Origin: a virus
IMG/VR virus record: IMGVR_UViG_3300037042_000850
Coordinates: 1-48,885 of that record
Length of the DNA stretch: 48,885 nucleotides
Strand: one strand, 5' to 3'
In this document: positions 8,159 to 48,428 of the stretch, in pieces
Layout of the letters: each line of letters opens with the position of its first letter
Position numbering within the stretch: the stretch's first letter is position 1
Translations under genes and position numbers: made by a program
Notes under the pieces: model-generated
What the model saw: only the letters and a program-made list of their open reading frames with translations
Database searches by the model: none
Told to the model about the DNA's origin: nothing

Positions 8159-11100
8159 TTACTTACATTCGTTTATTTTATTTTTTTCTTCTTGTGATAA
8201 AGCATTCCATTCTTCATCAGATAATTCTTCAGGTTTCTCAACTACAACTTCTGTAGCTACAGTAACCTCTTCAGCTGGTAAAGATACAACTTCTTCTACA
8301 ACTTCACCACCATAAAAGCTAACAATATCTACATCATTTAACTCTGTTGTAGTTTTGATTGTACCATTATCTATTACAGAACGTCTGAAGTCTGTGTAGT
8401 TCTCTGTAGCTCTAGCACCATCTCCATAAAGATTAACTAATTTATATACAGATTGTGGATCTCCTTTTTCATCTGGTATTCTTAATGGTTCTCCTGTAGA
8501 CAGGAACACTCTTTTATATCCAAATACATCATTCAAAGAGTAATCCCCTTTCTTTTGTCTAATAGCATAGTTTGCATTAGTAACTGTATTACCATTTGTA
8601 ACATCAATTCTTACACCACTTTTTAGTTTCACCACTCTTGGTACAGCAACATAGTCACTGTTCATAGCTTTCTGATTATACTTATCTCCAATCACCAAGA
8701 CTTGTCTATCTATTGATTGAAGATTCAATGAATCAATCTTTGGGAAAGAAGGAGAATAATAACCAGATGTATCAGGTAATCCTAATATCATAGCAGCATA
8801 ATCTTGACTCTTTGTTTTGAAATGTGGTGTAACTCTAGGCATAATCAATTGATCATCAAAGTTATTTCTTTGGAACATTCCATCAACAAATGCTTGTAAT
8901 GTTTCATCAGAAGAAATAGAACTTACCACAGGAGCCACAATAGCAGCATAGTCTTCTATAGGAATAATATTCTTAATAGATATAGCTGATTGATAACTTC
9001 CTTGTAGAATAGCTAATTGTACAAGTTGTTTGTATAACACTCTTGTATCAGCATTGAAGTCTCTAAGCTCTCTCATCATATCTACATAAAGATTTTCATC
9101 ATACGCATCTTTTAAGTTAGCTTTTAACTCAACACTTTTAGCACCATCTACTCTATCAGAAGAAACAACTTGTAAGTCTTTCAATATCTGTAGATCAGGA
9201 TATTTTTGTTTTGCTAGTTCCAATCTATTAGCAACAGATGTTTTTGCATCAACAAGAAGTTCTTGCGTTCTACCATTCACTCCTGTTTTAGTTTGTATAA
9301 TGTAATCTAAGAATGCCATTTTAGCTTTGTTAGATATCTTATTAAAGTTATCTACACTAAGATATTTATTCTTACCATAGGTCTTCATTATATCTTCTGT
9401 AATAATTCTAAGATTGTCTTGTTCTAATTTGAATATAGCTCCCATTGCTTGCATAGATGCAGAAAGAAGTTTTGATTGGTTACCAAGAAATGTAGTATCA
9501 AGAATTTCTTTTGCAGAAGAGATGATGTTCACTGTATTTGCTTTTTCTGTTTGCCATTGTTTTCTTGCAAACATATCTCCACTACCAAATCTACTTGTAT
9601 CATAGTTTGTAGCTTGTGAGAAATCAAAATTGAATTCACCCATCTTAGCATATTTTAAAAACTCTTTAAGAATTTTTCTTTGCTCAGCATTTTCTTTTAC
9701 ATCAAGTTTTTTATCAACAGCATATTTAGAAATATTATTTTTAAATTCATCTGTATTTATCACTGCATCATCAATTGAATCATTAGTAGCTGGGAACAAT
9801 GATTGAGCAGCATTTATATTTTCTTTATAGAAAAGGTTAGAAGAATTATTAGCATTTACAATTCTTAAATATTCTGTAATGATTGGTTGATTCAAGAAGT
9901 ATATAGATTGTTCTCCTGCACCAATATTCTCTAAGAACATAAATGTACCAATCACAAGATTTGATTGAATGATTCGTGTGATAAAGTCATCCTTAGCTAC
10001 ATCCACTACAGCAGTTGCATATCCAGAAAGTCTATTAGAAATTAATTGATTAGTTCCATCAGCTGTTCTTGTTCCTGATAAAGACACTCTATCTACACCA
10101 TTCACCTTTGTAGTGTTATGTTTCAATGCTATTGAACCATCACCTATCAATTTTTGATCATCTTCAGATAGAAGAGCAAACTTAGAAGGATCGATATAAG
10201 ATTGTATCTTTTGTCTCAATGAAAGATTTGTAATATTTACAGCTACAACACCAACCCATTTTTTACCCATAAGGAATGAGTTTCTTAAGTTGGTCATATA
10301 GTTTCTATCAAGAAGTCTATTTGCAATTTTATTTTCATCTATTCCTCTTAACTTATCAAGATCTTCAGCAGCTTTTTTTAATCCAGCATCATCCACAGGA
10401 GATACAAGTCTTTCAAAGTTTTCAGGAAGTGTGATAAGTTTCTCAAGACTATCATAATATTCGTTCTCAAGAGCTTTCTTATACATATCTTTTACATACT
10501 CAGAACGTAATTCAGCTTGTAAGTTTTCATTTGTTAACTTATCAAGATCTTTCTCAATTAAATCTCTGAACTCATATGGACTTTCATATTGTTCTTCTTT
10601 AGCTTTAATATAATCTCCATATATATTAAGTAATCCTTTAGGATCTTCCAATCCATTTACAACTATATCTAATGCTTCTAGAAGATCAACCTTTTTCATT
10701 TGTTTAATACCAAGAGTATCATCAAACACTTTACCATAGAACTCTTTTGTGTTCTCTTCTGTACCCTGCAATCTAACAAGTTTAATATTACCTGTTCTAT
10801 CTGCATATACAGATTTAAGATACATGTTCAACTTATCAATATCAAAATCACTTCCTGATTTAGTAGTGATCTCTGAAGGCACAACAACTGTTGCTCCCAT
10901 ATATTGTGGAAGGAAACCTTTCACTCTAAACACCTCAGCAGAAGAAAGAGCTTGTGTAGGAATTCTAAATCCAATACCAGAAAGAATAGATCTTCCTTCT
11001 TCTGTACTGTTTAAATGTTTAATTAATTCTTTATCTGTTTTGAATTTGTTTTTGAATTTATCTTTGAACCAATGAGGAAGATACATTTCACAATAACGTT

Positions 11101-14100
11101 GACCATCTTTATCTACATAGAACTTAAGACTTTCATCTGTAAGCATTACACCAGCTTTTTCTTCACTAGTTAATGTTTCATACTTCTCTTTAGTTATCTT
11201 CTCCCATACGCCTTCCTTGTTCTTCATAACAATACTTCTACCCTTAGTCATAGACTCAAGCATAGTTGAAGGCATTTGTACATGTGCTCCTCCACTCATT
11301 TTAGGAGAGACAATTGATTTGTCAATCATAGAATAAATAATACTTCTAATCTGTACGTAAGAAGGAGAAGCTTCAAATGGAATAATGAATTGATTCTCTT
11401 TAGTTAATTCGATAGATTGTTTTGTATTAGTAGAAACTTCTCTTCTTAACATCTCTCTCATCAATGTTTCAGATACAGTTTTACCATCTCTCATTACAAA
11501 TCCATTACCAAGATCTTCTATACCAAGATTGTTAAGAAGTTCATTGTATGCATTTTGGTGCATTCTATTTAGAATGTCCATATTACGTTTGTATTCTTCT
11601 TCAGCTCTAGGGCTTGTAGGAATACCATTATCAAATAAATCTATACTAGCAATTTTGGTAATCTGAGAACCTCTAGTTTGTGACTTGTTATCACTACTAG
11701 CTGTCTCCACTTGAATACCATAAGCTTTCCAAGGAACTTGTACAATAGATGCATCAGAGAAAGCTTCTTCATTGAATGAACCATCTCCATTATAAAGACT
11801 GTGTAACTCTTGTGCCCCTACCTTTCTACCTGATTCAACAATAGCATAGCCTATGTTTTGTTTCATCATTTGAATATATAGCTTCTCAAGGTTAGTTCCT
11901 TTCACCATACTATAATAGATAGGTACTTGAGAGAACTTATCTAATACAAGATCAAAATTATTCTTATTGAATTTGTTTCCAGATACAATAGGTTTTAATA
12001 TCTCTGTAGTATACTTAGGACGATCAGTGTCCATTAACTTAGCATCACTAGTTCTTAAAGCTTCACTAGTATATTCATACCCAGGAAGATTTTGTCTTGT
12101 GTAAGCCATTTCCCATTGGAACCATTTTTCTTCTGGTCCTTGCATGTTCCATTGTCCATTCTTAAGTTTAATCTCTCTGTGAGTAGTATCCATTAACCAT
12201 GAAACAGCATCTGCTTCATTTGTATTTGCATACAATTTATTAATAGCAGAAAGACTACCCGCAGTGATAACATCTTTAATAGTGATAGTATCAGTGTGAG
12301 ATTTATGTAAGTGATATCCAGGATCTCCTTCTTTTAATTGAATACCATTGACAACATTTAAATTGTTATTTAAGTATGTATTGTATTCAGCACTATCAAA
12401 TGTTGTTCTTCTTGGAGATAAGAAAGACTTAATACGTTTAGTCTCATCTAACGCTCCTCCTTTTTTAACAGCAAACTGATATGGATCACCAAATAATATT
12501 TTATGGAATTCTATGTTAGCAATAATATAATTAACATTAGCATATCTCAAGACTTGATTAATAGACTCATCAGAAAGAGAATCTTTTTTCAATGACTCAG
12601 CTTTGATAAAGTTATCATCAAGATCTAAATAAGCATATCCATTTTCTCTTGGTGAGATTTTTTGGTTTGCTTCAAGAACTGTTCTTGTTTCTGTTACAGT
12701 GTTTTCAATAAATTCTTTTACAGATTTATTAATATCAGCTATATTATCATTTACATAAGTAGTAATATCTTCAAGAGTTCTTCCATCTTCAATCATTTCA
12801 TTGATTGCATTTAGATTATCAGGTGCAAGGATATCTTTAAAGAAACGTAATTCTTTTGCTCTATCACCAACATTCAATAACTTCTCTCTATTTGTATAAT
12901 CTAAAGCTAAGTTAATATCATCCATTAAATATCCTTTAAATATAGAATTGATTTCTGTATATGAATTTCTTGCTATAGAATCAAATGAAACATTGTTTCC
13001 AATATTCATCATCCATTCTGTAGAACCATCTGCAGGAATAAGAATGTAATAGTTACCATTAAGGTTTTGATTTATCTCTAATGTATATCTATCACCTATT
13101 GTAAGTTTAGATGTAGAGGTTCCTTTATCAGTATCTTGATTATCTTCTCCTTGTATATAAGAAAGCTTGAAGTCTTTTATTTTGTTTCCATCTTTATCAT
13201 AGAATAATCCACCTTCTTTCAGCACTTGACTACCTGTAGAGAATGTATCATTTAATTCTGGTCTTGATTGTTTTAATTCAGTAAGTGATATCACTTCATT
13301 GAATTCATTTTCAAATACAGATGGTGTATTGTTTTCAGAGAAAGCACCAATACGTTGTCCCTCTACACCAAAGTATGTACTTTCTTGTGAAGGGTTATTC
13401 ACTTTATTATATAACTCAGATAATCTATTCAATGGTCCTCCAATATCTAATGTCTTACCAGAGATACTCATCAAATCATTATTACTTCCGAAGTAAGCAT
13501 ATATACTCTGTACTTGTTTAGTAAAACTATTTTCACCTACTTTTTCGTAAGGTTTTAATTTAACATATGTATCAAGATCAAATGTAATACCAATAGCATT
13601 TAACATTGCTATCATATCTTTAGGTTTTCTTATCAACATACTTTTAAGTGCATCCTGATCTATCTCATAAACGTTATTTACATTATTCCAGTTAACTATT
13701 TTTCCATCTCCTTTAGCTAAAGTTTTAATGTTATTCATCCATTCTTTCTCTGTCTGTGCAACAGCTGTAAATAGATTAGCAGCTCCTGTATGAACACTAT
13801 CAACAGATTTATATTGGATTAATGCATCTGGTTTTTGTCTAGCAAATGTTTGTATGAACTGAACAAATAATCTCCAGTCATTGTCTTTGAATTCACTAAA
13901 TGGAACCACTTTATCTTTACCACCTATCTTATTAAATACACTAACATAGTTAGCATCATCTTGAGCTAGGTTGAATAATTTATTTGTAAATGATTTGATG
14001 TCAGATGTATTAGAAAGTTTATCTAATAATGTAGCAAACACTCTACTGAAGTTCATAAGTTTATATCCTTGAATTTCATGACCATCAATAGTCATTTCAG

Positions 14101-17100
14101 AATATTTATTTTCAAGAGGAGTGTTTAATGTAATAGCACTCTCTTGATTAGTAGGTTGTTTTTCAATAACTGTAGAGCATAAAAATTTAACTGCAGATGA
14201 AGCATTCTTCTTAGTATCTAATGTGAATGGTTCAGGGGCATAATCATTTTTATTTGTCTCTTCATTATTAATATCAAGAAGTTCTTCTTCATTAAAGTTG
14301 ATACCTCTTGTACGTAATGAATCCTTCACCTTAGTTTTAAGTTGACTCCAAGTTTCATCAGTTAGTAATTGTCTTCTTCCTTCTTCAATAAGCATATCCT
14401 CAATCTTACCAAACATTTCTGTTCCAGTAATTCTTTCAGGATTAAACAAAAGACCTTTGTCTCCTTCTCTGAATAATATACCAGCAGCTCTTGCTGTCAT
14501 ATCCTGCACAAAGTTATTAGCTTGTGTAGCAGTTAAGTCAGCCACCTTACTATATTCAGCAAATGGATTAATTGATTCTGGTGCTAATACTTTTTCTTTA
14601 TATTTACCTGTATCAATTGCATCAAACAATTCTTCTTTTAATGAAGGACTACTAACAAATGATTTAAAGAAATTAATTATTCTACTAAACAAATTAGAAA
14701 TCTTTTCTCCTAATGATCTACCAGGAAGTTTACCTTTTCTAAAATCTGAGAAGTCATCAGCTATTCTTTCTTTAGCTTGAAGATCTGTAGCATCTGCATA
14801 GTTTATCTTCTTACCAGATTGTCTATCTGTAAATGTACCAGACTTAGCTTTAAACTCATCTAATAAAGCTTGTTGTTCTTCTGAAGATAACATACCTTTA
14901 TATATAGCTTCAAATATCTCATGATATTCTGTAGCTCTTAATCCACCTCTAACAAACTTAGCTACACCATTTTCAAATACACCCCATGCTTTTTCATTAT
15001 CATGTGTAGTGATTATATTTTCTAGCACTTCATAAGGAATGTTAGGAACATTAGCTGCATGCCATTCTTTAAATAGTTCTAGTTCAGCATCAGACATTCT
15101 TTCTGTTCCATCAACTCCTATTCTTCTGAAATCACCAGTTGGTCTTTTCTTAACAGGAACTACTGGTTTTTCTTCTAATTGTTTTTGTTCTTCATCTATT
15201 GATTCTTGTCTACTCTTTTCAGCTTCTTCAGTAAGTGCTTCATAAACTTTGTCAGGAGTAACAGAAACTTCTTTTGCTTTCTCAGTTTTTAATTCTGCAG
15301 CAATTCTAAGAGCTAAATAATCTGTAACATATCTTTCTTCTTCCTCTAAAGGAATAGAAGCATCAAACTTGTTAGCTTTCTTTAATGCTTCTTTGATGCT
15401 ATCAAATGTTTTTTTATCTTCAAGAAGTTTCTTAGTTGTTTCATTACTCTCAACTTCTACATTGAAATTACCATCAACATCTTCTGTTGCTGTAAATTGT
15501 ACAGGACCATTTTGAAGAATAAATGTATTTGATGTTTTACCATCCACTACATATTCTCCCACTGTAGCAACTTCTTCTCCAACAGGAGCTTCAGCTTTTG
15601 CTTTTTCTACAGGTGTAATTACTTGTACATTGAAACTATCTGGTTGTGCTATTGTAGAATATCTTTGTTTGAAAGAATAAGGAACTGCATCTGTAGGTCT
15701 AGCTATAGATGTAGATAATGGTGTATCACCAATAGGTCTAGCTTTACCACTAGGATATTTATTAGATAATAAGAATGTTTGGTAGTTTGTCCATTTACTT
15801 GAAACAAACTGACCATCTTGATTAATATACCATTCTTCAAATGGAATATTTTGAAGTTCTGTTAATGTTTTATTATTGATACTAAGGAATGCTTCATTAA
15901 TTAAATGTTCTTTAATCTCTGATTCATAGTTAGCTATTTCTGATAATGGAAAACTTTTGTTACCAAGTCTTAGACTCATTGATTCAATATCAATACCTAT
16001 TTGATTTGGTGTTGATGTATCAGCTTTTGATTTCCAATATAATATGTTCTGTAAGAACTTAGAATATTGTCTATTAAAGCTTATCTTTTGCCCTGTAGCA
16101 GATTGTTCCAATGTATCAGTAGCAAGTCTTTTAATCACCTCATATATACCACTAGCTTCTCTATTGTTGAATTTTCTATTATTCAAAAATTGAAGAGTGT
16201 CACCATATTGTAATACAGGAACACCATTAGGAGTTTTTTGTATTTCTCCCTTGCTATTAATAATAGTTCCTGTTGTAGGGATAGTTATTAAGTTTGCTTG
16301 ATTAGAAATAAGAGACTCATCAATTAGAATACCACCAACATGATTTCTTTCTTTAATACCATCTGCTGATATTATTTCAATAGGAATACCTCTTGATACA
16401 GAGAATTCAAATGTAGGAAACTCTGTAGCTCCAGCATTAAACAATGATGTTCTATATTCTTTCCATGCTCTAGCGTATGCTTCAGCTTCAGGTTGTTGAT
16501 CTTTTCTATATCTAGGAATAGGATTTCCCTGAGCATCTTTTCTTAAATAATTAAGACTTGTTGTACGCATTGTTTGGAATATAATCTTACTAAGATCAGT
16601 TCCTGCTTCACCCACTTTACCAATTCTATTCCCTTGTTTATCTACAAAGAATGAACCATCTACATCTTGTTCTACAAATACTTGTGCAACCCACCCTAAG
16701 TCATTATCATTTACATCTGCAATAGAACTAACATCTGATGTAACATCTTTATCATAAGACATCTGAACTAATCCGTTAAGGTTTAATCCTTCTGCTTGTT
16801 TAGATGTAATCAATATAGATCTAAGTTTAGATCTGTTAGGCATAGATGCAGCATTGTTTAAAAACTCTCTTGAGTTCTTAACATGTGGAAGAACCTCATC
16901 CCCATCCTCATCTTCTGTTGCTGATGTACTAGAAGTAAATAATATCTCAGCATCTAACAGACGTGGTTCTTTAATAGTTTCTATTACTTCTGAATTAACT
17001 GTAGCAACAGTTCCAGAATTGTGTTCAAGATCTGTTTGCTCTCTAGCTATATCTTCTTTATTCTTTTGTAATTTCTCTTGGTTTGTTTCAAGTCTTTTGT

Positions 17101-19993
17101 ATCCTCTAAGTCTTTTTGGATCAATGTTTAATATATCTCCATTAACATCCTCCACCTTCACTGTACCATCATCATTCAATCCTAACACTTTCACCTTAGA
17201 TAGGTTAGTACTTTCATCAGTTAAGTCTTTAGACTCTTCCACTGCAGCAGCTCTAGTCTTATGAAAAGATACAGTTCCATCAGGAGATGTTACTTGATAT
17301 CTATCATCAGCAATCTTTTTAATAGAAGCTTTCTTTGTAGCTCTCACCTCATACTCTCTACCAACTTCTAATCTTTCTTTTTCTTTATCTTCATTAACAA
17401 ATGAAGGTTGAGCTGTTCCTTTGTTTAAATCTTCTAAAGAAACTTCTTCATTAGCAATATCTTCTGCTTGTTTGAAATATTTATTAAATCCTTCTTCTGT
17501 AGAAAGATTATCAAAAGATTCATTCGCTAATCTTTTATGTTCATTATTTTTATTTATGTCAGCACCATAAGTATATAACTGTGAAGCATTCTCAAGACCT
17601 ACAACATCATCTTTTGTACCATCTTGATTATTTAATTCAAAGTTTAATAATGAATTAAATGTTTTTAAATCAAGTTGTCCATTATTTATAGCAAGAGTGA
17701 TCTTTTCAGAATTTGTACGTAAAGCTTTAGCTTGTTCTCTAATTAATTTCTTATCAGCAGGTGTAGTGTAATCAGTAATTGTATTTAATAATTGATTAGC
17801 TTGTTCTTCATATGATCTAGATAGTTCTTTTAATGATTCTCTATCAGTGATGTTAGATAACATATTATTAGTTACAAGAGGGTTTACTTGTGTAACTTTG
17901 TCTTGTATATCATTAAGTCTATCATTTACATCTTCTTTGATTGATGAATAATATGTAAGATCTGTTTTCCAATTTTCAAATGTATCATAATTAAAATTCT
18001 CTGCCTCTTGTTCAGGAGTAGGATCTATATAATTACTAAAAGGATTTTGGAATGTGCTATTGACAGCTTCTGATGTTTTTTGAATACCATTAGCTTTTTC
18101 AACTAATGAATCTACATAACTGTTCACAGTCTTTTGATTAGATGAATTAAAATTCATTCCAAAAGTTTTTTCAAAATCTTCTTTAGTAAGATCTTTCAAC
18201 ATATTTAATTGTTCAATTGTAACATCATGCATTCCTGATGGAATACGTGATTGTACAAAATTGAAGAACATATCATGTTTAAGATTTTTATATCTAAATA
18301 TATTTCCACCTGTAGCAGCCTCGTCCATTTCTTTTGCTATACCTACAGAGTTTAATGTATTATCATATTTATTAGAAAGAATACCTGTTAGTCCATATCT
18401 GTTAAGCATATTAACAGAAGCAGTTAAACGAGCATCACTACCCTGTCCTTTTTTATTATCATAGATACGTTGTCCTGATCCAATCAATGCAGCAGTAAGA
18501 CCACCAACAATCATATTACTAATACCTTCTGTACTATTAAATTGTTCAGCTAATCCATTAGTGGTAGACTGAGTAATTTCTTTTAAACTATCCCAGTTAT
18601 TTTTATATTCTGGATTGTTTAAATTTTTATATTTTCTAGTGTAGTAATCATACACACCTTTCTCAGCAGCAAACTGTCCACCTTCTTCATATACACCTTC
18701 AGAAAGTATGTTAGGTAGAACAGGTTTAACATTGTCCCAAAGTCTATTTCCAAGACCTGTAACAGCTTTCTTTTCAAATGTATCAAGACTTCCTTCTACA
18801 AGACCTACTTTACCAGCTTCACCTATTCCTTTTGTAAGACTTCCTGCAACTCCTTTTTGTGCTGTAACAAAAGACTTGAATAAGTTATCAAATTGTATAG
18901 CATTAGATACAGTTAGTAATGCCATGTTAATACCAAATCTAGTATTCATTGCATTAGTAGAATAATCTTCTATTTCTTGAAGATCTCCTGCTATAGGTTC
19001 CTGACCAAAATGAGTATCTTTATAATTCTGAATTAATGTATCTTTAACTTGTCTGTATCCATCTCTAGCTTCAACACCTGCTTCTGTCTGTGCAGCTCCC
19101 CAACTAATGATACCATAACGTGCACCATTTAAAACTTTTTGTGATTGAGCTAATTGTCCTAGTTGTTGTATCTTTAAAAGTTGCTTTTCACTTTTACCTA
19201 ATGTTTTAGCTAAACTTAAAACCTCTTCGACTTTATTAGTTCCTCCTGCAAGTTTATTTATCCACAAAGCAGCTTTACCAATTTGTGAACCTAATAATGG
19301 AACTGCTCCAATACCTTCTGTTACAAAACCTATTGCAGCATCTTGTACAGCAGCACCAGCAATAGCACCACCCATAAATCCAAGATTCTTAATAACAGAA
19401 TCACCCCAGAAGTTTGCAGATCCAGTAAACCCAGGAATCATTGCTAGATAAGGATGTTCTTTCTCTTGTCTAGTCATATAGTTTGGAAGATAATCCTCTA
19501 TGTTTTTCATCCAATTATCTATACTTCCTTCATATCCATCTGGATCTCCAGAAAGTTTAGACATATCTCTATTTCTAATAGCTGATATTGTATTAGGAAT
19601 ATCAGTCATAGATTGTGCAAATGTACCTACAGCTATTACGCCTGCTTTAGCAAGACCACTACCTAATGATGAATACCATGATTGTTGTAATCCATATATG
19701 TTTTCAAGATCTGCATCTCGTTCAAACATATTATAACGTTGATTATCTAATAATGTTTTTCTACTAACAGAACTAAATGGGGCATCAAATGATGTTGCAT
19801 CTGGAGCTTGAACTTTAGCAAGTTCATCCATACTCAATCCCATATTAGATTTATTACCAAGGCTCCAATCACCACCCATATCAGTATTTATTCCTCTTGT
19901 AGTAGGAGATCCTAAAGGTACTTGTGGTAATCTAATTTCATCATTAGATCTATCAGAAACATTATTTATAAGTTCGTTATCAAAAATTGGCAT
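8159..19993 (-). CDS. Giant virion RNA polymerase-containing cargo protein, 3944 aa
   Basis: A single uninterrupted 3944-codon frame. At residues 3049-3053 it reads DFDID within KSGSDFDIDKLNMYL. This fits the DxDxD metal-binding loop of two-barrel RNA polymerases and the loop reported for the virion RNA polymerase of the crAss-like phage phi14:2. The expected role is transcription of early phage genes after ejection of the protein with the genome. The protein is far longer than the ~2200-residue phi14:2 enzyme. Its N-terminus has hydrophobic, Gly/Ala-rich stretches at about 105-128 and 203-247, as in membrane-penetrating internal virion proteins. Near 1691 it carries HEIFE in a peptidase-like context (ATEYHEIFEAIYKGMLS). 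The C-terminus is acidic (PEELSDEEWNALSQEE). It sits between the 888-residue and nuclease-bearing cargo genes, 12 and 1 bp away. The polymerase call is good; the functions of the N-terminal half are unknown. Confidence 0.85.
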   Translation of the reverse strand: MPIFDNELINNVSDRSNDEIRLPQVPLGSPTTRGINTDMGGDWSLGNKSNMGLSMDELAKVQAPDATSFDAPFSSVSRKTLLDNQRYNMFERDADLENIYGLQQSWYSSLGSGLAKAGVIAVGTFAQSMTDIPNTISAIRNRDMSKLSGDPDGYEGSIDNWMKNIEDYLPNYMTRQEKEHPYLAMIPGFTGSANFWGDSVIKNLGFMGGAIAGAAVQDAAIGFVTEGIGAVPLLGSQIGKAALWINKLAGGTNKVEEVLSLAKTLGKSEKQLLKIQQLGQLAQSQKVLNGARYGIISWGAAQTEAGVEARDGYRQVKDTLIQNYKDTHFGQEPIAGDLQEIEDYSTNAMNTRFGINMALLTVSNAIQFDNLFKSFVTAQKGVAGSLTKGIGEAGKVGLVEGSLDTFEKKAVTGLGNRLWDNVKPVLPNILSEGVYEEGGQFAAEKGVYDYYTRKYKNLNNPEYKNNWDSLKEITQSTTNGLAEQFNSTEGISNMIVGGLTAALIGSGQRIYDNKKGQGSDARLTASVNMLNRYGLTGILSNKYDNTLNSVGIAKEMDEAATGGNIFRYKNLKHDMFFNFVQSRIPSGMHDVTIEQLNMLKDLTKEDFEKTFGMNFNSSNQKTVNSYVDSLVEKANGIQKTSEAVNSTFQNPFSNYIDPTPEQEAENFNYDTFENWKTDLTYYSSIKEDVNDRLNDIQDKVTQVNPLVTNNMLSNITDRESLKELSRSYEEQANQLLNTITDYTTPADKKLIREQAKALRTNSEKITLAINNGQLDLKTFNSLLNFELNNQDGTKDDVVGLENASQLYTYGADINKNNEHKRLANESFDNLSTEEGFNKYFKQAEDIANEEVSLEDLNKGTAQPSFVNEDKEKERLEVGREYEVRATKKASIKKIADDRYQVTSPDGTVSFHKTRAAAVEESKDLTDESTNLSKVKVLGLNDDGTVKVEDVNGDILNIDPKRLRGYKRLETNQEKLQKNKEDIAREQTDLEHNSGTVATVNSEVIETIKEPRLLDAEILFTSSTSATEDEDGDEVLPHVKNSREFLNNAASMPNRSKLRSILITSKQAEGLNLNGLVQMSYDKDVTSDVSSIADVNDNDLGWVAQVFVEQDVDGSFFVDKQGNRIGKVGEAGTDLSKIIFQTMRTTSLNYLRKDAQGNPIPRYRKDQQPEAEAYARAWKEYRTSLFNAGATEFPTFEFSVSRGIPIEIISADGIKERNHVGGILIDESLISNQANLITIPTTGTIINSKGEIQKTPNGVPVLQYGDTLQFLNNRKFNNREASGIYEVIKRLATDTLEQSATGQKISFNRQYSKFLQNILYWKSKADTSTPNQIGIDIESMSLRLGNKSFPLSEIANYESEIKEHLINEAFLSINNKTLTELQNIPFEEWYINQDGQFVSSKWTNYQTFLLSNKYPSGKARPIGDTPLSTSIARPTDAVPYSFKQRYSTIAQPDSFNVQVITPVEKAKAEAPVGEEVATVGEYVVDGKTSNTFILQNGPVQFTATEDVDGNFNVEVESNETTKKLLEDKKTFDSIKEALKKANKFDASIPLEEEERYVTDYLALRIAAELKTEKAKEVSVTPDKVYEALTEEAEKSRQESIDEEQKQLEEKPVVPVKKRPTGDFRRIGVDGTERMSDAELELFKEWHAANVPNIPYEVLENIITTHDNEKAWGVFENGVAKFVRGGLRATEYHEIFEAIYKGMLSSEEQQALLDEFKAKSGTFTDRQSGKKINYADATDLQAKERIADDFSDFRKGKLPGRSLGEKISNLFSRIINFFKSFVSSPSLKEELFDAIDTGKYKEKVLAPESINPFAEYSKVADLTATQANNFVQDMTARAAGILFREGDKGLLFNPERITGTEMFGKIEDMLIEEGRRQLLTDETWSQLKTKVKDSLRTRGINFNEEELLDINNEETNKNDYAPEPFTLDTKKNASSAVKFLCSTVIEKQPTNQESAITLNTPLENKYSEMTIDGHEIQGYKLMNFSRVFATLLDKLSNTSDIKSFTNKLFNLAQDDANYVSVFNKIGGKDKVVPFSEFKDNDWRLFVQFIQTFARQKPDALIQYKSVDSVHTGAANLFTAVAQTEKEWMNNIKTLAKGDGKIVNWNNVNNVYEIDQDALKSMLIRKPKDMIAMLNAIGITFDLDTYVKLKPYEKVGENSFTKQVQSIYAYFGSNNDLMSISGKTLDIGGPLNRLSELYNKVNNPSQESTYFGVEGQRIGAFSENNTPSVFENEFNEVISLTELKQSRPELNDTFSTGSQVLKEGGLFYDKDGNKIKDFKLSYIQGEDNQDTDKGTSTSKLTIGDRYTLEINQNLNGNYYILIPADGSTEWMMNIGNNVSFDSIARNSYTEINSIFKGYLMDDINLALDYTNREKLLNVGDRAKELRFFKDILAPDNLNAINEMIEDGRTLEDITTYVNDNIADINKSVKEFIENTVTETRTVLEANQKISPRENGYAYLDLDDNFIKAESLKKDSLSDESINQVLRYANVNYIIANIEFHKILFGDPYQFAVKKGGALDETKRIKSFLSPRRTTFDSAEYNTYLNNNLNVVNGIQLKEGDPGYHLHKSHTDTITIKDVITAGSLSAINKLYANTNEADAVSWLMDTTHREIKLKNGQWNMQGPEEKWFQWEMAYTRQNLPGYEYTSEALRTSDAKLMDTDRPKYTTEILKPIVSGNKFNKNNFDLVLDKFSQVPIYYSMVKGTNLEKLYIQMMKQNIGYAIVESGRKVGAQELHSLYNGDGSFNEEAFSDASIVQVPWKAYGIQVETASSDNKSQTRGSQITKIASIDLFDNGIPTSPRAEEEYKRNMDILNRMHQNAYNELLNNLGIEDLGNGFVMRDGKTVSETLMREMLRREVSTNTKQSIELTKENQFIIPFEASPSYVQIRSIIYSMIDKSIVSPKMSGGAHVQMPSTMLESMTKGRSIVMKNKEGVWEKITKEKYETLTSEEKAGVMLTDESLKFYVDKDGQRYCEMYLPHWFKDKFKNKFKTDKELIKHLNSTEEGRSILSGIGFRIPTQALSSAEVFRVKGFLPQYMGATVVVPSEITTKSGSDFDIDKLNMYLKSVYADRTGNIKLVRLQGTEENTKEFYGKVFDDTLGIKQMKKVDLLEALDIVVNGLEDPKGLLNIYGDYIKAKEEQYESPYEFRDLIEKDLDKLTNENLQAELRSEYVKDMYKKALENEYYDSLEKLITLPENFERLVSPVDDAGLKKAAEDLDKLRGIDENKIANRLLDRNYMTNLRNSFLMGKKWVGVVAVNITNLSLRQKIQSYIDPSKFALLSEDDQKLIGDGSIALKHNTTKVNGVDRVSLSGTRTADGTNQLISNRLSGYATAVVDVAKDDFITRIIQSNLVIGTFMFLENIGAGEQSIYFLNQPIITEYLRIVNANNSSNLFYKENINAAQSLFPATNDSIDDAVINTDEFKNNISKYAVDKKLDVKENAEQRKILKEFLKYAKMGEFNFDFSQATNYDTSRFGSGDMFARKQWQTEKANTVNIISSAKEILDTTFLGNQSKLLSASMQAMGAIFKLEQDNLRIITEDIMKTYGKNKYLSVDNFNKISNKAKMAFLDYIIQTKTGVNGRTQELLVDAKTSVANRLELAKQKYPDLQILKDLQVVSSDRVDGAKSVELKANLKDAYDENLYVDMMRELRDFNADTRVLYKQLVQLAILQGSYQSAISIKNIIPIEDYAAIVAPVVSSISSDETLQAFVDGMFQRNNFDDQLIMPRVTPHFKTKSQDYAAMILGLPDTSGYYSPSFPKIDSLNLQSIDRQVLVIGDKYNQKAMNSDYVAVPRVVKLKSGVRIDVTNGNTVTNANYAIRQKKGDYSLNDVFGYKRVFLSTGEPLRIPDEKGDPQSVYKLVNLYGDGARATENYTDFRRSVIDNGTIKTTTELNDVDIVSFYGGEVVEEVVSLPAEEVTVATEVVVEKPEELSDEEWNALSQEEKNKINECK

Positions 19994-20005: not shown

Positions 20006-22672
20006 TTATTTGTGGATTTTTAAAAAATCAGAAACAGTCCCAGGACCAATTTGTTTCATTTGTTCTTGTACACTAGCAATAGATGTAAATCTATTCCCTA
20101 CATATCCAGGTACCCAAACACTATTGTTATTTACATACATTTTTAAAATGAATGAATCATTATCACCTCCATCATTGTCAGCAGCTCCTTCAACATCAAA
20201 CCTAACTAGTGGAGCTAACGCTGTACTTGATAAATGTGGAGCTTGATATCCACTAAATTTAGCATTCACTGCAAGAGAACTATCATCACCAACTCCTAAT
20301 ACATTAGTTGTATGAGAAGCAGAAGACATCACTTGATTTTTAACATCACTCCAAGGATTACCTTGAGCTATGTTTGGAAAGAATTTAGAAAGCTCACCAG
20401 ATGTCATAGGGATAGTTTGTGTCTCAGCTCCATCTGTTACAACTAAATTAGCAGATCCATCATATCTTTTTTCTATTGTATATAAAACATTCTTCTTTGA
20501 TCTAAGAGCAGATAGACTAGTAGGAGAAAAATCTCCCCATTTTTTAACATCTACTTGTCCAAGTTTATTAAATTCATCTGTTTTATTTCCAATTAATTGT
20601 TTAATATGTCTTTGATCAGTTGTATTATTATCATAGTCAAGTGTTCCAACTTGTGATTGTCTTTCAGGCATTTTTGCTGCTAGATAATCAGATTCAAATT
20701 TTTGTTTAGCTTGATGTATTTTAGATATCTGTGGATCAAATTTCATTTTAATGTTTTGTGCTTGATCAACTAACACTCTTTCTGTAGGATTTAATGCTTC
20801 ACCATTAGCACGTTTTATATAAGCTTTTACTAATGGTTCTTCTTTTTTACCTTTATAAGCTTTTAATAATGCATCACTATCTAATACCATATTTGTTCCA
20901 AACTTTTCACCACCTAGTACAATACTTCCACCTTTACCACCAGTCCAATATGTTTCAGCATCTTTTGAAAAGTTATATAACTCATTTGATGAATATAATT
21001 CTCTACCATTTAAGTTTACTCCTACTTGGTTTTTAAGTACATCTTTTTGTTGATTATCAAATTTAGCTGATGCAGCTTTTGTACCATTATATAAAGCGTA
21101 TTTCTGAGCTGCTGTGATTTCAAGTGCTCTTCTCTTCTCTAAGTATTGAGCTAAGTTAGGATTACCTAAAGCATTAACTACCTTCTCTGGATTTTTAAAA
21201 TACTCTCTTGATAAGTAATCTAAATAACTAGCTTTTTGTTGAGGAGTTTTTAAAGAAGACTTAGTAACCTTATCTATATATTCATTTGTAAGAAGATCTA
21301 TTTGACCAGGAGTTTTAATTCCTCCACCTTCTGTTCTATCTCCAATTATACTTAATATCTCTGCATTTAATTTTCCTGCACTAGGAGTGTCAACATCTGT
21401 AGACAATGCTTGATTTGTAACTGGAGGAAGAGATCCATCTTTTAAAGCTTTTGCATCTTCAGCTTTTTGTGCGGTTTCAACACCCCATGTGTACTGACCC
21501 CACTTAAATTTTCTATCTTCGTTTCTTTGATCTCTAGCAGCATTATCATAACTAAACTGAAGATTTCTTCTTTGCATATCCATCTGAGCATAAGGATTAG
21601 TTTTATACTCTTGTTTGTATGATTGATATGATATATCTTTAGCTAGATTATATAAAGTTTTTTGTGTATATAATTTATACTTGTAATCTTCAATATCTTT
21701 ATTAGAATCTATTTGTGCAAACTCTGCATCTAATTGTTTACCCAGAGAACCATCTGATAATGTTGTACTAGCATCATTTATATCTGCTTGTATTTTATTT
21801 CTTTCAGCAGTTGTTAAATTAGGACTAGTGCTTAGTTCTACATTCTTTTGAATAATTTTATCATTCAACATTTGTTTTGAATCCTCATAATTCTTAACAG
21901 CATCTTCTTTAAAGTTATCTGCTGTCTTTCCTCTATAATGATACCAAGCATCTATACCTAATTGTTGTTTATCATTTTCATCTAATGAATCATAGAAGTT
22001 AGCTAAGATCTTTTCTGCTGGTTTACCTTTAGTTGTAATAGAAAGAATAGCATCATCTACAATTGGATTACCATTTTTATCCATTAAATGTCTACCTGTA
22101 GCAGTATCTCTTTTAAAAGGATCTTCAACAGTGTTATCTACTTCATGTACTTTTTCAGCAACATCTCTAAGTTTCTTTTCCATATCTGTATAATGGACAT
22201 ACTTACCATTATAAGATTCTTTTAAATGTGTCTTATTAATATATTGACCTGCACCTTCTTCAAACTTAGCTCTATTCTGAATAGATGACTTTCCAGCTTT
22301 TTCATCAGCCTCTAAAATCTTTTGTTGTTTTCTTAAATTGGCTGTAGAAGATACAGCATTTATTACATTAGGATCTTTAACTATTTGCTTAGTCATTCCA
22401 TTAACAGAATTAACTAATTGGAAATTAGAAAAGTCACCACCAGCAACAAAGTTTAAATTATTACCTAAGCCATCTAATTTAGATTGTAAGTATTTTTTAT
22501 CTAACTCAGAAGCTACATCAAGTCCTGCAACATTATCAATGCTAGTTTGTATTCTTTGTACACCCTCTTCGTACTTTTGTTGTTTGTACATACCTACCTT
22601 CAACATAGCCTCTACAGGTTGTTGTGCGACGTAAGGATTGAAGGTGGGGATTTTATCTGTATATGAAGCCAT
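20006..22672 (-). CDS. Virion cargo/internal structural protein, 888 aa
   Basis: The protein begins MASYTDKIPTFNPYVAQQP and continues with KVGMYKQQKYEEGVQRI and DFSNFQLVNSVNGM. I recognise this N-terminus as typical of a large internal virion protein found beside the polymerase gene in crAss-like and other Bacteroidetes phages. The body is predominantly helical and charged, with coiled-coil-like segments (about 60-420), and no catalytic motif is apparent. The last ~120 residues appear more beta-rich. It is the first gene after the promoter-like element at 22741-22766 and leads the cargo operon, with only 12 bp to the polymerase gene. The probable role is packaged cargo or ejection scaffold; this is inference from context and family resemblance. 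The start is supported by an A/T-rich leader and the conserved N-terminus. Confidence 0.78.
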   Translation of the reverse strand: MASYTDKIPTFNPYVAQQPVEAMLKVGMYKQQKYEEGVQRIQTSIDNVAGLDVASELDKKYLQSKLDGLGNNLNFVAGGDFSNFQLVNSVNGMTKQIVKDPNVINAVSSTANLRKQQKILEADEKAGKSSIQNRAKFEEGAGQYINKTHLKESYNGKYVHYTDMEKKLRDVAEKVHEVDNTVEDPFKRDTATGRHLMDKNGNPIVDDAILSITTKGKPAEKILANFYDSLDENDKQQLGIDAWYHYRGKTADNFKEDAVKNYEDSKQMLNDKIIQKNVELSTSPNLTTAERNKIQADINDASTTLSDGSLGKQLDAEFAQIDSNKDIEDYKYKLYTQKTLYNLAKDISYQSYKQEYKTNPYAQMDMQRRNLQFSYDNAARDQRNEDRKFKWGQYTWGVETAQKAEDAKALKDGSLPPVTNQALSTDVDTPSAGKLNAEILSIIGDRTEGGGIKTPGQIDLLTNEYIDKVTKSSLKTPQQKASYLDYLSREYFKNPEKVVNALGNPNLAQYLEKRRALEITAAQKYALYNGTKAASAKFDNQQKDVLKNQVGVNLNGRELYSSNELYNFSKDAETYWTGGKGGSIVLGGEKFGTNMVLDSDALLKAYKGKKEEPLVKAYIKRANGEALNPTERVLVDQAQNIKMKFDPQISKIHQAKQKFESDYLAAKMPERQSQVGTLDYDNNTTDQRHIKQLIGNKTDEFNKLGQVDVKKWGDFSPTSLSALRSKKNVLYTIEKRYDGSANLVVTDGAETQTIPMTSGELSKFFPNIAQGNPWSDVKNQVMSSASHTTNVLGVGDDSSLAVNAKFSGYQAPHLSSTALAPLVRFDVEGAADNDGGDNDSFILKMYVNNNSVWVPGYVGNRFTSIASVQEQMKQIGPGTVSDFLKIHK

Positions 22673-22759
22673 AGCGTATTAGTTAAGCAAATATAATATG
22701 AATTATTAGATTATACAATAGGTATAATAAGTTTTGTTAATTCTTTATAATTAAATTAG
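22673..22759. other. Intergenic leader between 1266-aa and 888-aa genes
   Basis: An 87-bp, almost pure A/T gap that contains most of the promoter-like element and the leader of the 888-residue cargo gene. It is one of very few gaps of this size in an otherwise tightly packed minus-strand array, which is why I treat it as a transcription-unit boundary. I see no convincing intrinsic terminator for the upstream 1266-residue gene here, so some read-through is likely. Confidence 0.55.
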
Positions 22760-22766
22760 TTATAAA
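22741..22766 (-). promoter_or_regulatory. Putative late promoter, copy 2 (cargo operon)
   Basis: On the minus strand this reads TTTATAACTAATTT followed directly by AATTATAAAGAA. It matches the element at 38118-38143 at 25 of 26 positions. It lies 69 bp upstream of the 888-residue gene's ATG and overlaps the last codons and stop of the preceding gene. Conservation inside A/T-rich non-coding sequence at two operon starts argues for a promoter or activator site. It does not look like a typical E. coli sigma-70 promoter, and whether the host polymerase or a phage factor uses it is unknown. Confidence 0.6.
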
Positions 22767-25700
22767 TTTTTGTATGCTCTTACTACAGAGCTATTTTTTT
22801 GGTTCTTTTTAATTCCACCACCATTTTTCTTACTGGATAAATTATCAACCATTCCTTTTACATTTTGAAGATCAGTATCTGTTTGATCTGTATCATCTTT
22901 CTCTGTAATTTTTTGTAATCTTATTGGACTTCCGTTTGCATCATAAGCTGTAGCTTTATATCCTTCAGGAATTTCTTGATCTTTTCTATCTGTAGCTCCA
23001 GCTATATCTGTATCAAAGAATTGTAATCCATTCCAGTTCTGAGCTTTACCACTCTTACCAAATCTATAGTTGTACATGTTTTCATATACACCCAATGTTC
23101 TATTCTCAAGTTTATGCTTAGCATATTTATCAGCTATAGAATTAAGTGCAGCTTGTGTTGTAGCTTTAGTATTAGATTTAGCTAATGCTTGTTTACCCCA
23201 TTGATCTGCAGCTATTCCTAAGTTTGTCATTTGAGCTTGATTCATAGTTGCTCTGTTACCAGAATAAACTTGATCTTTTTTAGCTTGATTCATTTGGAAC
23301 TCTCTTGCATTGATATCATTAATTGCATTGTATCCAAGAGGAGCAGCATTTGATTGAGCAGAAGGATTATATCCAAGTTGTTTTTGAAGAGCTCTATCTC
23401 TAGCTACAACAGCATTACGTTCATTCTGTAAAGATATATCATAGGGAACATTTAGATCTGGTTGATAGAACTGTACAGGAACAGGATCCAATTGATTAGA
23501 TGCCATAGCATTCCACTCTGGATATAATTGTTGATAATCCAACCCTTCTTGATCTGATGGTCTAAGATAATTTAAAAGTGCATTAGCAGGTATCTGCCAA
23601 GGAAATTTAGGTTTACTTTTACCAATAACATCTGGTACATCTTCTTCTGCTACTAAATCTTCTTCAGGAGCTGGTTCTGATTTTTTAGCTTCATCTGCAG
23701 TAAAACTAAGGTATTGGTCACCAAAAATAGGAAGTCCTTGTGGATTCTTTTTAGTTTTAGGGTCATCTAATATACGAGCTTTTGATCCTATTTTTTCTGA
23801 TTTAGCGTTAGCCCAATTTTTAAAGTCATTTAAACTTATTGGATTTTTTGGATCTAACTTGTCTATACCAGGATAATCAGGAAATCTTTTCTTAAATTGT
23901 TCAAATTTTTCTTTTGTTACTCCTCCTGCAAATCCTGTAGCTTTGTCTAACTTCTGTGCAGGGATATTATCCATAGCACTAGCAGATTTAGTTTCTGTAT
24001 CAGGTTTTTTAACACCCACATGTTTTTTATAATACTTACCATCCGCACGTAATGTATATCCTTCAGCCTTAAGTAGTTCTTTTGATTTCTTAGGAACAAC
24101 TGTAGTTTCTTTTGTTGTTGTAATACCATCTTTAGCTTTACTAACTGTAGCACCCCACTTAGCATCTTTAGTTACAGGATCTTTATCTAACTTAACATAT
24201 CCTTTAGCTAAATGTTCAGCACTAATATTTTTACCCATACCTTCTGATATTTCATCTTTAGCATCATTGATTGCATTCTGGTAGTTAGCTAATGTTATTT
24301 TTGTATTAGCTATATTTTTAAGACCTGAATCAGCTCCTTCAAGATTAGCTTTCAATGCAGAAAGTGTTAACTTATCAAAAGGAGTGTTCACCTTCAATGC
24401 TTCTAATGCATCTGTATTCTTAATGATAGCTTTATTGTGTTTAGCTTCTTGCTTAGCAAGTTCTATTCCAATGTTCTTAAATTTCTTACCATTATACTTA
24501 TTTGCTATTTCCATAAGTTCTGGATCTTTAAATTGTGATGCAATGTTTTTGTTTACTTGCATGTTACCAAATACTACACCAGTATTTTCTGATTCACCAG
24601 TCATAGGATTTACTTCTCCACCACTTGCCATTTCAAACATAGGTTCTCCTCTTTCTACTTCTACAGGATTATCACCATATGTAATACCAATACCTGTATT
24701 TCCTTGTCCATCAGATTCATTATGTGACTGTCCTCTAAATAAAACTGTTTCACCAGATCCTGGCATATAAGGATTATGAGAAACTGTTTCAGCTCCTCCA
24801 CCCCAATGAGTTTGTAATTGTCCACCCATAGCATATGTTTCCATAGCTCTTTCACTAGGAGGAGTGTATTCTTTTAAATGTCCACCAGCTCTAAATTTAT
24901 GTGCATAGTCAGCAAAGTCTTTAGCATTATGATCTCCAAACATTGTAATCACTTGAGGATTGTATTCAGGATTCATATATCCACCATCTTCATAGTTAGG
25001 AATATCACCACCATTTCTTACATATCTATTATTTTGACCTTGTAAAGCTTGCATACTAGAATTAAGAGCCATGGCTTCTGTATTAATCTTAGTTTGATCC
25101 TCTGCTTTTTTAATTTTTTGAGGATTTGTATCTAATAATTGTCCACCGATACCACCAACAACTTCTCCAATTGCTCCACCCACAGGTCCCCAAATTGAAC
25201 CAATACTTTTACCAACAGTTCCTCCAATCTTTCCACCAGCATTTTGTCCACCCATTGCTGTTTGTCCTGCTCCTGTAGCAGTATGTCCAATTGCTCCCCA
25301 AGGAGTTCCACCACCACCACCACTACTAGCAGCTCCAGAGAATCCACTTCCACCACCACTCATTGAATTCTGCCAATTAGCAAATCCACCACCACTTTGT
25401 AGAACATGAAGATAACCACCATGTCTAAAATCTTTTTGTTGGAAAGGATTATTTAATGGTTCATAACCACCATCTGTATAGATATCATTTCCACCATCAT
25501 ATGTATTTTGTATCTCTGTTGGATTACCACCTATTCTTCCACCACTTTGAAAACGTCCACCATTTCTAGAAAGTACATTTGTACCTACACCATATATAGG
25601 AAAGAATTCTTCACCTGTGTTTTGTATATCTTCTGGTCTAACATATTTTCTTTTAGATTCTTCTTCTCTAGTTGCAGAAGCTTGACGAGTAACATTACTT

Positions 25701-26560
25701 ACAGCTCTATTTTGTTCAGCTTGTTTTCTAGCTCTTCTCTCACCTCTTAATTGATCATAACCTTCCATTAATTTACCAGTTATTCCAAGTGGATCTAAAC
25801 CTTTTGCTGTTTTAGTTGCTGCACTAGGTCCACCTTGCACTTGTTGTGCTGAAGGCATTGGATTAAGTTGAGATAAAGTTTGACCAGATGGACTATTTCC
25901 AGCTGGTGTTAAATTAGTTCCAACAGGTTGAACTGGTTCTCGTGGAGGACCATTAGGTCCAGCATATATTGGTTGAGGTTGTCCATAATTTGTTGAACCT
26001 CCAGGAGAATTGTTATCCCACCAACTTCCACCATCTTGTGCTCTTGGGATATTGGTTCCATTTCTACTAGCACCACCAAATAAACCTCCAAGCATTTCCA
26101 TGAATCCACCACCACCTTCTCCTCCACCACCTTCACCACCAAACATGCCCATGATGCCATCCATTCCACCACCACCACCTTCAGCATCTTCTCCACCACC
26201 AAACATTTTCATCGTGCTACCCACATCCATTCCACCACCATCACCTTCTCCACCTCCACCACCACCACCTTTGGTAGCAGTAGCTTCTAGCATAGCTTGC
26301 TCATAAGCAGCTTTTGCTCTTTCTCCTTCAGTAGATCCAGTATTAGATTTATCACCTGCATCATAAATTTCTTGAAAGTCAATTAACTCTGATTGTTTAG
26401 GAATAAATTGTTTAGGAGATGCTCCACCAATAAGATCACCCATAGCAGCTTTCTTAAAAGCTTTACCATGTTGTTTCATGAATGCTTCCTCTGAAGGATA
26501 TTTCTTGTAGAACTCCTTTTCAGATTTAACTCCAGCTATTTTTAAAATTTGTGCTTTCAT
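22760..26560 (-). CDS. Gly-rich structural/cargo protein, 1266 aa
   Basis: The protein starts MKAQILKIAGVKSEKEFYKK, a basic helical head I associate with crAss-like late proteins. Residues about 97-165 are extremely Gly-rich with Met/Phe (GMFGGEGGGG type), encoded by repeated GGT/GGA triplets. A long low-complexity region then carries repeated short Gly-Gly modules (AQDGGSWWDN, YTDGGYEPL, MGGQLQTHWGGG). A recognisable segment reads SHNESDGQGNTGIGITYG followed by NPVEVERGEPMF, a module recurring in Bacteroidetes phage structural proteins. The C-terminus is basic and ends NSSVVRAYKNL. It begins one base after the previous stop (TAATATG) and closes the tail/neck operon. The role is probably an internal virion component or scaffold; no enzyme signature is visible. 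The Gly-rich tract may act as a flexible or self-associating segment. Confidence 0.7.
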   Translation of the reverse strand: MKAQILKIAGVKSEKEFYKKYPSEEAFMKQHGKAFKKAAMGDLIGGASPKQFIPKQSELIDFQEIYDAGDKSNTGSTEGERAKAAYEQAMLEATATKGGGGGGGEGDGGGMDVGSTMKMFGGGEDAEGGGGGMDGIMGMFGGEGGGGEGGGGFMEMLGGLFGGASRNGTNIPRAQDGGSWWDNNSPGGSTNYGQPQPIYAGPNGPPREPVQPVGTNLTPAGNSPSGQTLSQLNPMPSAQQVQGGPSAATKTAKGLDPLGITGKLMEGYDQLRGERRARKQAEQNRAVSNVTRQASATREEESKRKYVRPEDIQNTGEEFFPIYGVGTNVLSRNGGRFQSGGRIGGNPTEIQNTYDGGNDIYTDGGYEPLNNPFQQKDFRHGGYLHVLQSGGGFANWQNSMSGGGSGFSGAASSGGGGGTPWGAIGHTATGAGQTAMGGQNAGGKIGGTVGKSIGSIWGPVGGAIGEVVGGIGGQLLDTNPQKIKKAEDQTKINTEAMALNSSMQALQGQNNRYVRNGGDIPNYEDGGYMNPEYNPQVITMFGDHNAKDFADYAHKFRAGGHLKEYTPPSERAMETYAMGGQLQTHWGGGAETVSHNPYMPGSGETVLFRGQSHNESDGQGNTGIGITYGDNPVEVERGEPMFEMASGGEVNPMTGESENTGVVFGNMQVNKNIASQFKDPELMEIANKYNGKKFKNIGIELAKQEAKHNKAIIKNTDALEALKVNTPFDKLTLSALKANLEGADSGLKNIANTKITLANYQNAINDAKDEISEGMGKNISAEHLAKGYVKLDKDPVTKDAKWGATVSKAKDGITTTKETTVVPKKSKELLKAEGYTLRADGKYYKKHVGVKKPDTETKSASAMDNIPAQKLDKATGFAGGVTKEKFEQFKKRFPDYPGIDKLDPKNPISLNDFKNWANAKSEKIGSKARILDDPKTKKNPQGLPIFGDQYLSFTADEAKKSEPAPEEDLVAEEDVPDVIGKSKPKFPWQIPANALLNYLRPSDQEGLDYQQLYPEWNAMASNQLDPVPVQFYQPDLNVPYDISLQNERNAVVARDRALQKQLGYNPSAQSNAAPLGYNAINDINAREFQMNQAKKDQVYSGNRATMNQAQMTNLGIAADQWGKQALAKSNTKATTQAALNSIADKYAKHKLENRTLGVYENMYNYRFGKSGKAQNWNGLQFFDTDIAGATDRKDQEIPEGYKATAYDANGSPIRLQKITEKDDTDQTDTDLQNVKGMVDNLSSKKNGGGIKKNQKNSSVVRAYKNL

Positions 26561-35601: not shown

Positions 35602-36081
35602 TTATTTTTTCCATTCGTTATAGACATATTGATACTTGTCGTTGGTCTTTAAGTAATGTGATAGAAGTCTTGATGTAAGTCTAGAAGGTTTGAAATACCA
35701 AAGATCAGAATTTTTAAACCTTGCTGTGGTTTTAAACCACATCCAACCAAAAAAATAACCTTCTGTATGATAATTAAAGTTATATATAACCTTTCCTTTC
35801 TCTTTAGTCTTTTGCCAGTCGATTGGTAGATTGACAAACTCTTTACCATCTATATTATTTTTTAGTTTTCTTCTTTTCTTTTTATTGATAGAGAACTCTC
35901 CAAATCCATAAGGAAGCTTTGCTTTCTCACCTGTCTCTAAAATATATTCTTTAAAAGATTCATTATAGGTATATAATATATTTCTCCACTCATCAAACGT
36001 TAATTTTATAGCTGAGTGTTTCTTACAAAACTGATTATAGTTGTCTTTGCTAGAACTTCTCCAATCAATCTTTGTTCTCAT
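35602..36081 (-). CDS. Conserved small late protein of unknown function, 159 aa
   Basis: A basic 159-residue protein (MRTKIDWRSSSKDNYNQF). Its start overlaps the upstream stop by one base (TAATG), so translation is coupled. It contains GEFSINKKKRRKLKNN, an aromatic stretch (NYHTEGYFFGWMWFKTTARF) and a C-terminal FKPSRLTSRLLSHYLK. The charge and aromatic content suggest nucleic-acid or protein binding, but I cannot name a family. Small basic proteins occur between ring genes in crAss-like genomes, so it may be a neck component or assembly factor. That is inference from position only. Confidence 0.62.
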   Translation of the reverse strand: MRTKIDWRSSSKDNYNQFCKKHSAIKLTFDEWRNILYTYNESFKEYILETGEKAKLPYGFGEFSINKKKRRKLKNNIDGKEFVNLPIDWQKTKEKGKVIYNFNYHTEGYFFGWMWFKTTARFKNSDLWYFKPSRLTSRLLSHYLKTNDKYQYVYNEWKK

Positions 36082-36809
36082 TAATTAGTTGGTTTTGAGT
36101 TTGGTGATTGACCATCTATTCCTTCTGCACTAACATCTGTTTTAAGTGTGAAGTAAGTAGATAATAGTTTCTTTGATGTTAATTCAAGGACTTGTTGTTC
36201 TAAGTATCCAGGAAGAGCAAACTCTTTATCTAATGGGTTAATACATATCTGTTCATTTGTATACTCAGGAGATCCACATCCACATTCAGGATACATGATA
36301 TCATTGTGCACATCTTCTTCGAAGAAAGCTACAAATCTAATTGCTTTAAGTAAAGGATTGTTTACATAAAGATATCCATTAGTAATCCAGAAGTATTCTT
36401 CTTTTTTGATTACAGGAAGTTTTAAAAGATTTAGATATCTATTAATAGATATTTCTTTTAGTTTCTTTCCTTTACCACTTAAAGCATTAATAGAATAAAC
36501 TCCTTGTATAACATATTGATAGTTTCCTTCAGATATACGTGGGAGTTTAAATTTAGTTCTAGCTATAGAACAAGGATCAACATAGTTACAACATTCAGAA
36601 ATAGATACCTCTATCATCTCTAAACAAGGGATAGTGGTAAATAGTGTATCAGTTGCCCATAACTTTCTAAGATTGGTTTCTCTCTTGATTAATAACAAGG
36701 AGTTGTTTCTTATCTCAGATGCGATTGCTCTATCTGTAATAAGACTATCTGTAGAAAGTATCTTGTGGACACTTCTAACATCACTGACTAATTTTCTTAA
36801 TGTTGCCAT
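36081..36809 (-). CDS. Neck/ring-type structural protein, 242 aa
   Basis: A 242-residue protein starting MATLRKLVSDVRSVHKILS, with an N-terminal helical region, a Cys-bearing middle (ISECCNYVDPCSIARTKF and ECGCGSPEY), and a C-terminal helix rich in Leu (YLEQQVLELTSKKLLSTYFT) followed by TDVSAEGIDGQSP. The C-terminal layout, acidic run then Leu-rich helix, resembles that of the 243-residue protein at 46664-47395 (CELETYLEDELLDLTVQNLA), suggesting both are ring proteins of the neck. The start lies 2 bp after the phosphoesterase stop. I call it a connector protein with moderate confidence; no direct motif proves it. Confidence 0.65.
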   Translation of the reverse strand: MATLRKLVSDVRSVHKILSTDSLITDRAIASEIRNNSLLLIKRETNLRKLWATDTLFTTIPCLEMIEVSISECCNYVDPCSIARTKFKLPRISEGNYQYVIQGVYSINALSGKGKKLKEISINRYLNLLKLPVIKKEEYFWITNGYLYVNNPLLKAIRFVAFFEEDVHNDIMYPECGCGSPEYTNEQICINPLDKEFALPGYLEQQVLELTSKKLLSTYFTLKTDVSAEGIDGQSPNSKPTN

Positions 36810-48394: not shown

Positions 48395-48428
48395 AATGTA
48401 GTTAAATTTAATAATTGGTTTTAATTTG

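Follow-up and report, generated by a model that had tools for sequence, protein, structure and literature searches.

Box A, a 26-base element present twice in this phage DNA, is likely an operator and not a promoter: a dimeric, probably phage-encoded activator bound there would recruit host RNA polymerase to a separate promoter downstream. The anatomy of the element, its spacing and its two target operons are well supported, and we found no published description of it.

The phage record and its late operons

The analysed DNA, called the window here, is a virus record of 48,885 bases, probably a fragment, whose coverage of the late strand reaches from the head region as far as the fibres; near-complete relatives measure about 113 kb, and one of them (G010) has a terminal repeat of roughly 200 bp. 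No named relative is close: the window and Flavobacterium phage Fpv1 share 26% identity in the neck protein (3e-9), and homologues in G010 match the TerL, portal and MCP of Fpv1 at 1.8e-24, 9.3e-26 and 8.5e-14. Homologous TerL, portal, major capsid and neck genes, compared against Fpv1 and mostly by way of G010, place the phage in the Crassvirales; Fpv3, which is related to Fpv1, was placed with the crAss-like phages in a published survey (PMC7886860). The genes that matter here are the following.

36812-38035, minus strand: SbcD-like exonuclease (phrog_704, E 9.2e-52), first gene of the neck/tail operon
36081-36809, minus strand: virion structural (neck) protein with a homologue in Flavobacterium phage Fpv1, second gene of the SbcD/neck/tail operon
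20006-22672, minus strand: 888-aa protein, first gene of the cargo operon
8159-19993, minus strand: 3944-aa open reading frame of the cargo operon, putative virion RNA polymerase, with a DFDID motif at residue 3049

The putative assignment of the 3944-aa frame follows from its genome position and from DFDID, which we take to be the catalytic motif of the phi14:2 polymerase. Elsewhere in the window, a lone tRNA-Met (CAT) gene (48428-48500, minus strand) adjoins the capsid-side late genes, and positions 1-1700, in the fibre region, hold highly repetitive coding sequence with a collagen-like look.

Box A is an inverted repeat whose arms change together

The 26-mer, TTTATAACTAATTT[A/G]ATTATAAAGAA, occurs on the minus strand as copy 1 (38143-38118, TTTATAACTAATTTGATTATAAAGAA) and copy 2 (22766-22741, TTTATAACTAATTTAATTATAAAGAA), which have a single difference and are thus identical at 25 of 26 positions, while 100 dinucleotide shuffles gave 0 matches with up to 3 mismatches allowed. 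The earlier note had reported these two elements, had placed each before the first gene of a tightly packed operon and had seen a terminator ahead of one of them, and all of this holds: both copies stand before the first gene of a tightly packed minus-strand gene run, and an intrinsic terminator lies directly before copy 1. Beyond that description, box A proves to be an inverted repeat, the SbcD-like exonuclease is the first gene after copy 1, with neck/head-completion genes behind it, and the stop codon of the gene before copy 2, the open reading frame at 22760-26560, falls within that copy.

38151-38174, minus strand: intrinsic terminator of the upstream operon, with a 10-pair stem (6 G-C pairs) followed by a T run
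38121-38143, minus strand: box A copy 1, 23-bp dyad TTTATAACTAATTTGATTATAAA, centre 38132 (26-mer 38118-38143)
22744-22766, minus strand: box A copy 2, 23-bp dyad TTTATAACTAATTTAATTATAAA, centre 22755 (26-mer 22741-22766)

Directly before the terminator, and separate from it, lies an RNA hairpin (38176-38203, minus strand) whose 12-base loop, TTTGTTGGTTTT, hardly varies across 124 of 131 upstream sequences apart from a choice of G or A at a single position, and whose stem covaries strongly (6.36 of 7 pairs, where shuffles gave 4.44 and at most 4.94). This hairpin has no Rfam match and is present once in the window and once in each of the near-complete relatives G010, G031 and G008.

The repeat has the form TTTATAACTA-ATT-TAGTTATAAA and is perfect in many of the aligned relatives. 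Across 52 distinct 23-mers, 8.25 of 11 positions pair symmetrically, against 7.25 +/- 0.12 in column shuffles and a highest value of 7.69 in 2000 of them; these shuffles re-deal the bases of the right arm, keeping the make-up of each column and ignoring shared descent, though several different arm types occur. The paired changes include TAACTA/TAGTTA, TAATCAA/TTGATTA, TAACCAA/TTGGTTA and TAACTGA/TCAGTTA. Diverged relatives, with SbcD proteins about 32% identical, remain symmetric through changes in both arms (TTATAATCAAGTTGATTATAA in L168 and TATAACCAAGTTGGTTATTA in L171), and the same is seen at the cargo locus (TATAACTGATTCAGTTATA in L140). The deepest relatives have a degraded dyad at one of the two loci, namely SbcD in L165, L167 and L170 and cargo in L317. 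A possible third half-site, [AG]TTA, was seen by eye between the dyad and the -33 element, some 22-23 bp beyond the right arm.

Such symmetry would suit a site for a dimeric DNA-binding protein. Arms that change together are also what a stem-loop in a transcript would show, and two direct copies per genome would fit a recombination, replication or packaging site; we nevertheless consider readings of this kind improbable. At both operons the predicted start is downstream of box A, which argues against an RNA element, and neither recombination nor packaging explains why its distance to the -7 box, described below, is kept at two otherwise unlike loci.

A host-type promoter follows each dyad at a fixed distance

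Starting 24 bp downstream of the dyad, each operon has a promoter of the form used by Bacteroidota host sigma factors, that is, TTTG and, 19-21 bp further on, TAnnTTTG or TAnnTTTA; the primary sigma promoters of Bacteroidota are TTTG / TAnnTTTG (PMC6847099, PMC9723704, PMC2483708). The sequences are TTTG-N21-TATCTTTA after copy 1 and ATTG-N20-TATATTTG after copy 2.

38093-38096, minus strand: -33 element TTTG of the SbcD/neck/tail promoter, with 21-bp spacing to the -7 element, kept in 88 of 88 distinct upstream sequences
38064-38071, minus strand: -7 element TATCTTTA of the same promoter, of the TAnnTTTG type with A as last base (TA[TC]CTTTA in all relatives); predicted start about 38059
22716-22719, minus strand: -33 element ATTG of the cargo promoter, with 20-bp spacing
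22688-22695, minus strand: -7 element TATATTTG of the cargo promoter; predicted start about 22683

Both operons thus have the core of Bacteroidota sigma-A promoters at 20-21 bp spacing: the cargo promoter agrees with the -7 box in full and with the -33 element, which is kept in relatives, at three of four bases, whereas the SbcD promoter departs from the usual form in the final A of its -7 box, and both have the upstream dyad in addition. The -33/-7 pair was found downstream of the dyad in 88/88 distinct upstream sequences at SbcD and in 44/46 at the cargo gene. A sigma-70 style promoter scan was uninformative, with 59 promoters found against 72 expected in shuffles.

Of 132 distinct upstream sequences, 128 have the dyad centre 60-61 bp ahead of the first T of the -7 box; the centre was picked within 59-63 bp, and an unconstrained search likewise gave 60-61 in most. 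Bacteroidota sigma-A promoters begin transcription about 5 nt past the -7 box. In Flavobacterium promoters the first T of TAnnTTTG stands at -12 (PMC6847099, PMC9723704). The dyad centre therefore falls at about -72 from the expected start. This is close to seven helical turns and is a classical upstream-activator position. As the two loci are otherwise unlike, their common site and common spacing are strong evidence of joint function.

The same sequences bear on whether the 26-mer could itself be the core promoter, with a -10 of the T4 late type, TATAAATA, read by a phage sigma factor, or with hexamers resembling -35 and -10 elements. It is AT-rich and conserved, and TATAAATA is found in and after the right arm in many relatives. 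In diverged sites, however, TATAAA is lost (the ends read TTATACC, TTATTAC and TTAAACT) while the TAAC/GTTA dyad stays, and the host-type pair follows at fixed spacing with a near-invariant -7 box, TA[TC]CTTTA or TA[ACT]ATTTG. What is found here is not the T4-type late promoter, in which a conserved TATAAATA serves as the -10 with no other core element, and we give little credence to a core promoter within the 26-mer.

Position is also the ground on which activation is to be preferred to repression. Were box A bound by a repressor, both operons would be silent until late, and a dyad accompanied by host-type promoters would suit a repressor from either phage or host; yet the dyad lies upstream of -33, never overlaps the promoter and keeps a constant helical phase, and the SbcD core promoter is not of consensus form. 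We regard repression as unlikely, and a repressor or an architectural protein might still sit at -72. The -7 box of SbcD ends in A, in place of the usual near-invariant G, in all 88 distinct relatives, as expected for an activator-dependent promoter. The capsid promoter is often TAnnTTTA as well.

Box A is restricted to two operons and to phages

Of 80 relatives, 79 have box A 80-83 bp upstream of the SbcD start codon, and in the last one the locus begins so close to the gene that the position is not covered; box A precedes the cargo gene in relatives as well. Of 20 records, 16 have two sites, 4 have one and none has more than two, and a reversed-pattern control gave 0 matches in the same records. 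All 26 fetched sites precede an SbcD-like or a cargo gene, and so do the sites in all 26 contigs that match the near-exact motif. Box A was not found before the terminase, capsid and fibre operons. In 257 Gb of prokaryote genomes only 6 exact matches occurred, in Firmicutes-type and Chloroflexi assemblies and none in Bacteroidota records. This phage specificity makes a phage-encoded reader likely. The cultured crAss-like phages Fpv1, phi14:2 and crAss001 gave no convincing match; Fpv1 has one match to the diverged core with 3 mismatches, at its annotated helicase gene.

This distribution speaks against a hairpin promoter for a virion RNA polymerase, as in N4-like phages, where an inverted repeat with a 3-base loop is used. 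The 10-bp arms and 3-base centre of box A resemble such a hairpin, and the phage has a gene for a putative virion RNA polymerase. The virion polymerase of crAss-like phages, on the other hand, transcribes the early genes (PMC10136315), yet no box A with up to 3 mismatches was found in the early regions of near-complete relatives. In N4 the hairpins precede early genes; box A sites precede structural operons only, and the promoters downstream are of host type, which leaves this explanation very improbable.

The earlier note had proposed a phage-specific late promoter class. Specificity to phages and the tie to structural operons are borne out by at most two sites per relative record, at the same two loci, and by the absence of a Bacteroidota match. 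The element is not itself the promoter, being a dyad at fixed spacing from a separate -33/-7 promoter 24 bp downstream, nor does it mark the whole late class, given that the terminase, capsid and fibre operons use another element.

A second element and candidate regulators

That other element, box B (GCTATATTA or its complement), stands upstream of host-type promoters at the terminase, capsid and fibre operons, at an offset similar to that of box A. At the terminase operon 56 of 57 distinct sequences have it, either 51-53 or 60-63 bp away from the -7 box, and these positions differ by roughly one helical turn; at the capsid operon 52 of 54 have it, at a distance of about 63-65 bp (relatives L204-L283 and L322-L396). 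The distant Leptolyngbya phage Lbo-JY46 has box B too, ahead of its capsid operon (L321), and neither box was found before the late operons of phi14:2 and crAss001. In the window it is seen at a fibre-region gene.

3353-3364, minus strand: box B GCTATATTATAC, before the sigma-A type promoter of the fibre-region gene at 2907-3296
3302-3309, minus strand: -7 element TAACTTTG of that promoter

Since the terminase, capsid and fibre operons use box B, box A promoters are one of at least two late classes.

The terminase operon, which starts the late strand, is headed by three conserved small genes (L160:19302-19673, minus strand, and neighbours) that encode a winged-helix protein (g41), an HU-like protein (g40; PF00216, E 1.8e-8) and a cysteine-rich, zinc-ribbon protein (g39), and these are candidate box A regulators. 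Lbo-JY46 has the same gene order, and crAss001 has it in part, with a gene annotated as a VpsT-like transcriptional regulator and then HU upstream of the terminase. The conserved g41 was modelled by AlphaFold with helices plus a wing (mean pLDDT 76); the model has no PDB match below E 0.001, and MarR-type proteins and the activation domain of T4 MotA are among the entries listed above that value. Pfam and PHROG gave only weak HTH matches for g41, and profile comparisons were likewise weak (crAss001 gp13, annotated as VpsT-like regulator, E 0.01; the Lbo-JY46 gene, E 0.042; phi14:2 gp109, E 0.36), so that kinship with these proteins is suggestive only. The recognition helix of g41 is nearly invariant, and hence no link to the changes in the operator can be drawn; of the two boxes, box B is the more widespread, so g41 could just as well read that one. 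Pfam and PHROG scans of the family proteins showed no obvious activator and no Ogr homologue.

We tentatively raise the possibility, which we hold to be somewhat doubtful, of a two-box late code imposed on host sigma-A promoters, in which box A would serve the neck/tail and cargo/virion-RNA-polymerase operons and box B the terminase, capsid and fibre operons. Two phage activators, one or more of them perhaps from the three genes heading the terminase operon, would then set separate late subclasses.

A model for box A and its relation to known systems

In the operator model, box A would be the two-fold symmetric site of a dimeric protein centred about 72 bp upstream of the start, and the two operons would present it on the same face of the helix. 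The dimer would touch the host RNA polymerase/sigma-A holoenzyme and recruit it to the -33/-7 promoter just downstream, and the SbcD/neck/tail and cargo/virion-RNA-polymerase operons would be switched on together, late in infection, to judge by their gene content.

Among known systems, the late promoters of phages P2 and P4 depend on Ogr/delta activators, the P2 site being TGT-N12-ACA centred near -55. Here too several virion operons (two, with at most two sites per record) have a phage dyad ahead of their weak host-sigma promoters, and host RNA polymerase would work with a phage activator that we infer. Unlike in P2, the dyad is TAAC/GTTA at about -72 and precedes a Bacteroidota -33/-7 promoter. 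Class I activator promoters, such as those of CRP, have sites near -61, -72 and -82; box A resembles them as a symmetric site upstream of the core at whole-turn spacing, centred at about -72, and differs in its sequence and in having two targets per genome. Late genes of the Crassvirales are thought to be transcribed by host RNA polymerase (PMC10136315, PMC8375218). The proposal includes phi14:2 and crAss001, which resemble this phage in genome plan and in their late structural and cargo genes (PMC10136315, PMC8375218), and we found no late promoter or operator described in the literature searched.

The architecture of operator, core promoter, spacing and target operons is precise and testable, is conserved in more than 100 environmental phage sequences, and comes with a short list of candidate regulators. 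It bears on the early-to-late switch that crAss-like phages impose on host RNA polymerase, and it would link production of the putative virion RNA polymerase to a single operator that the neck/tail operon has as well.
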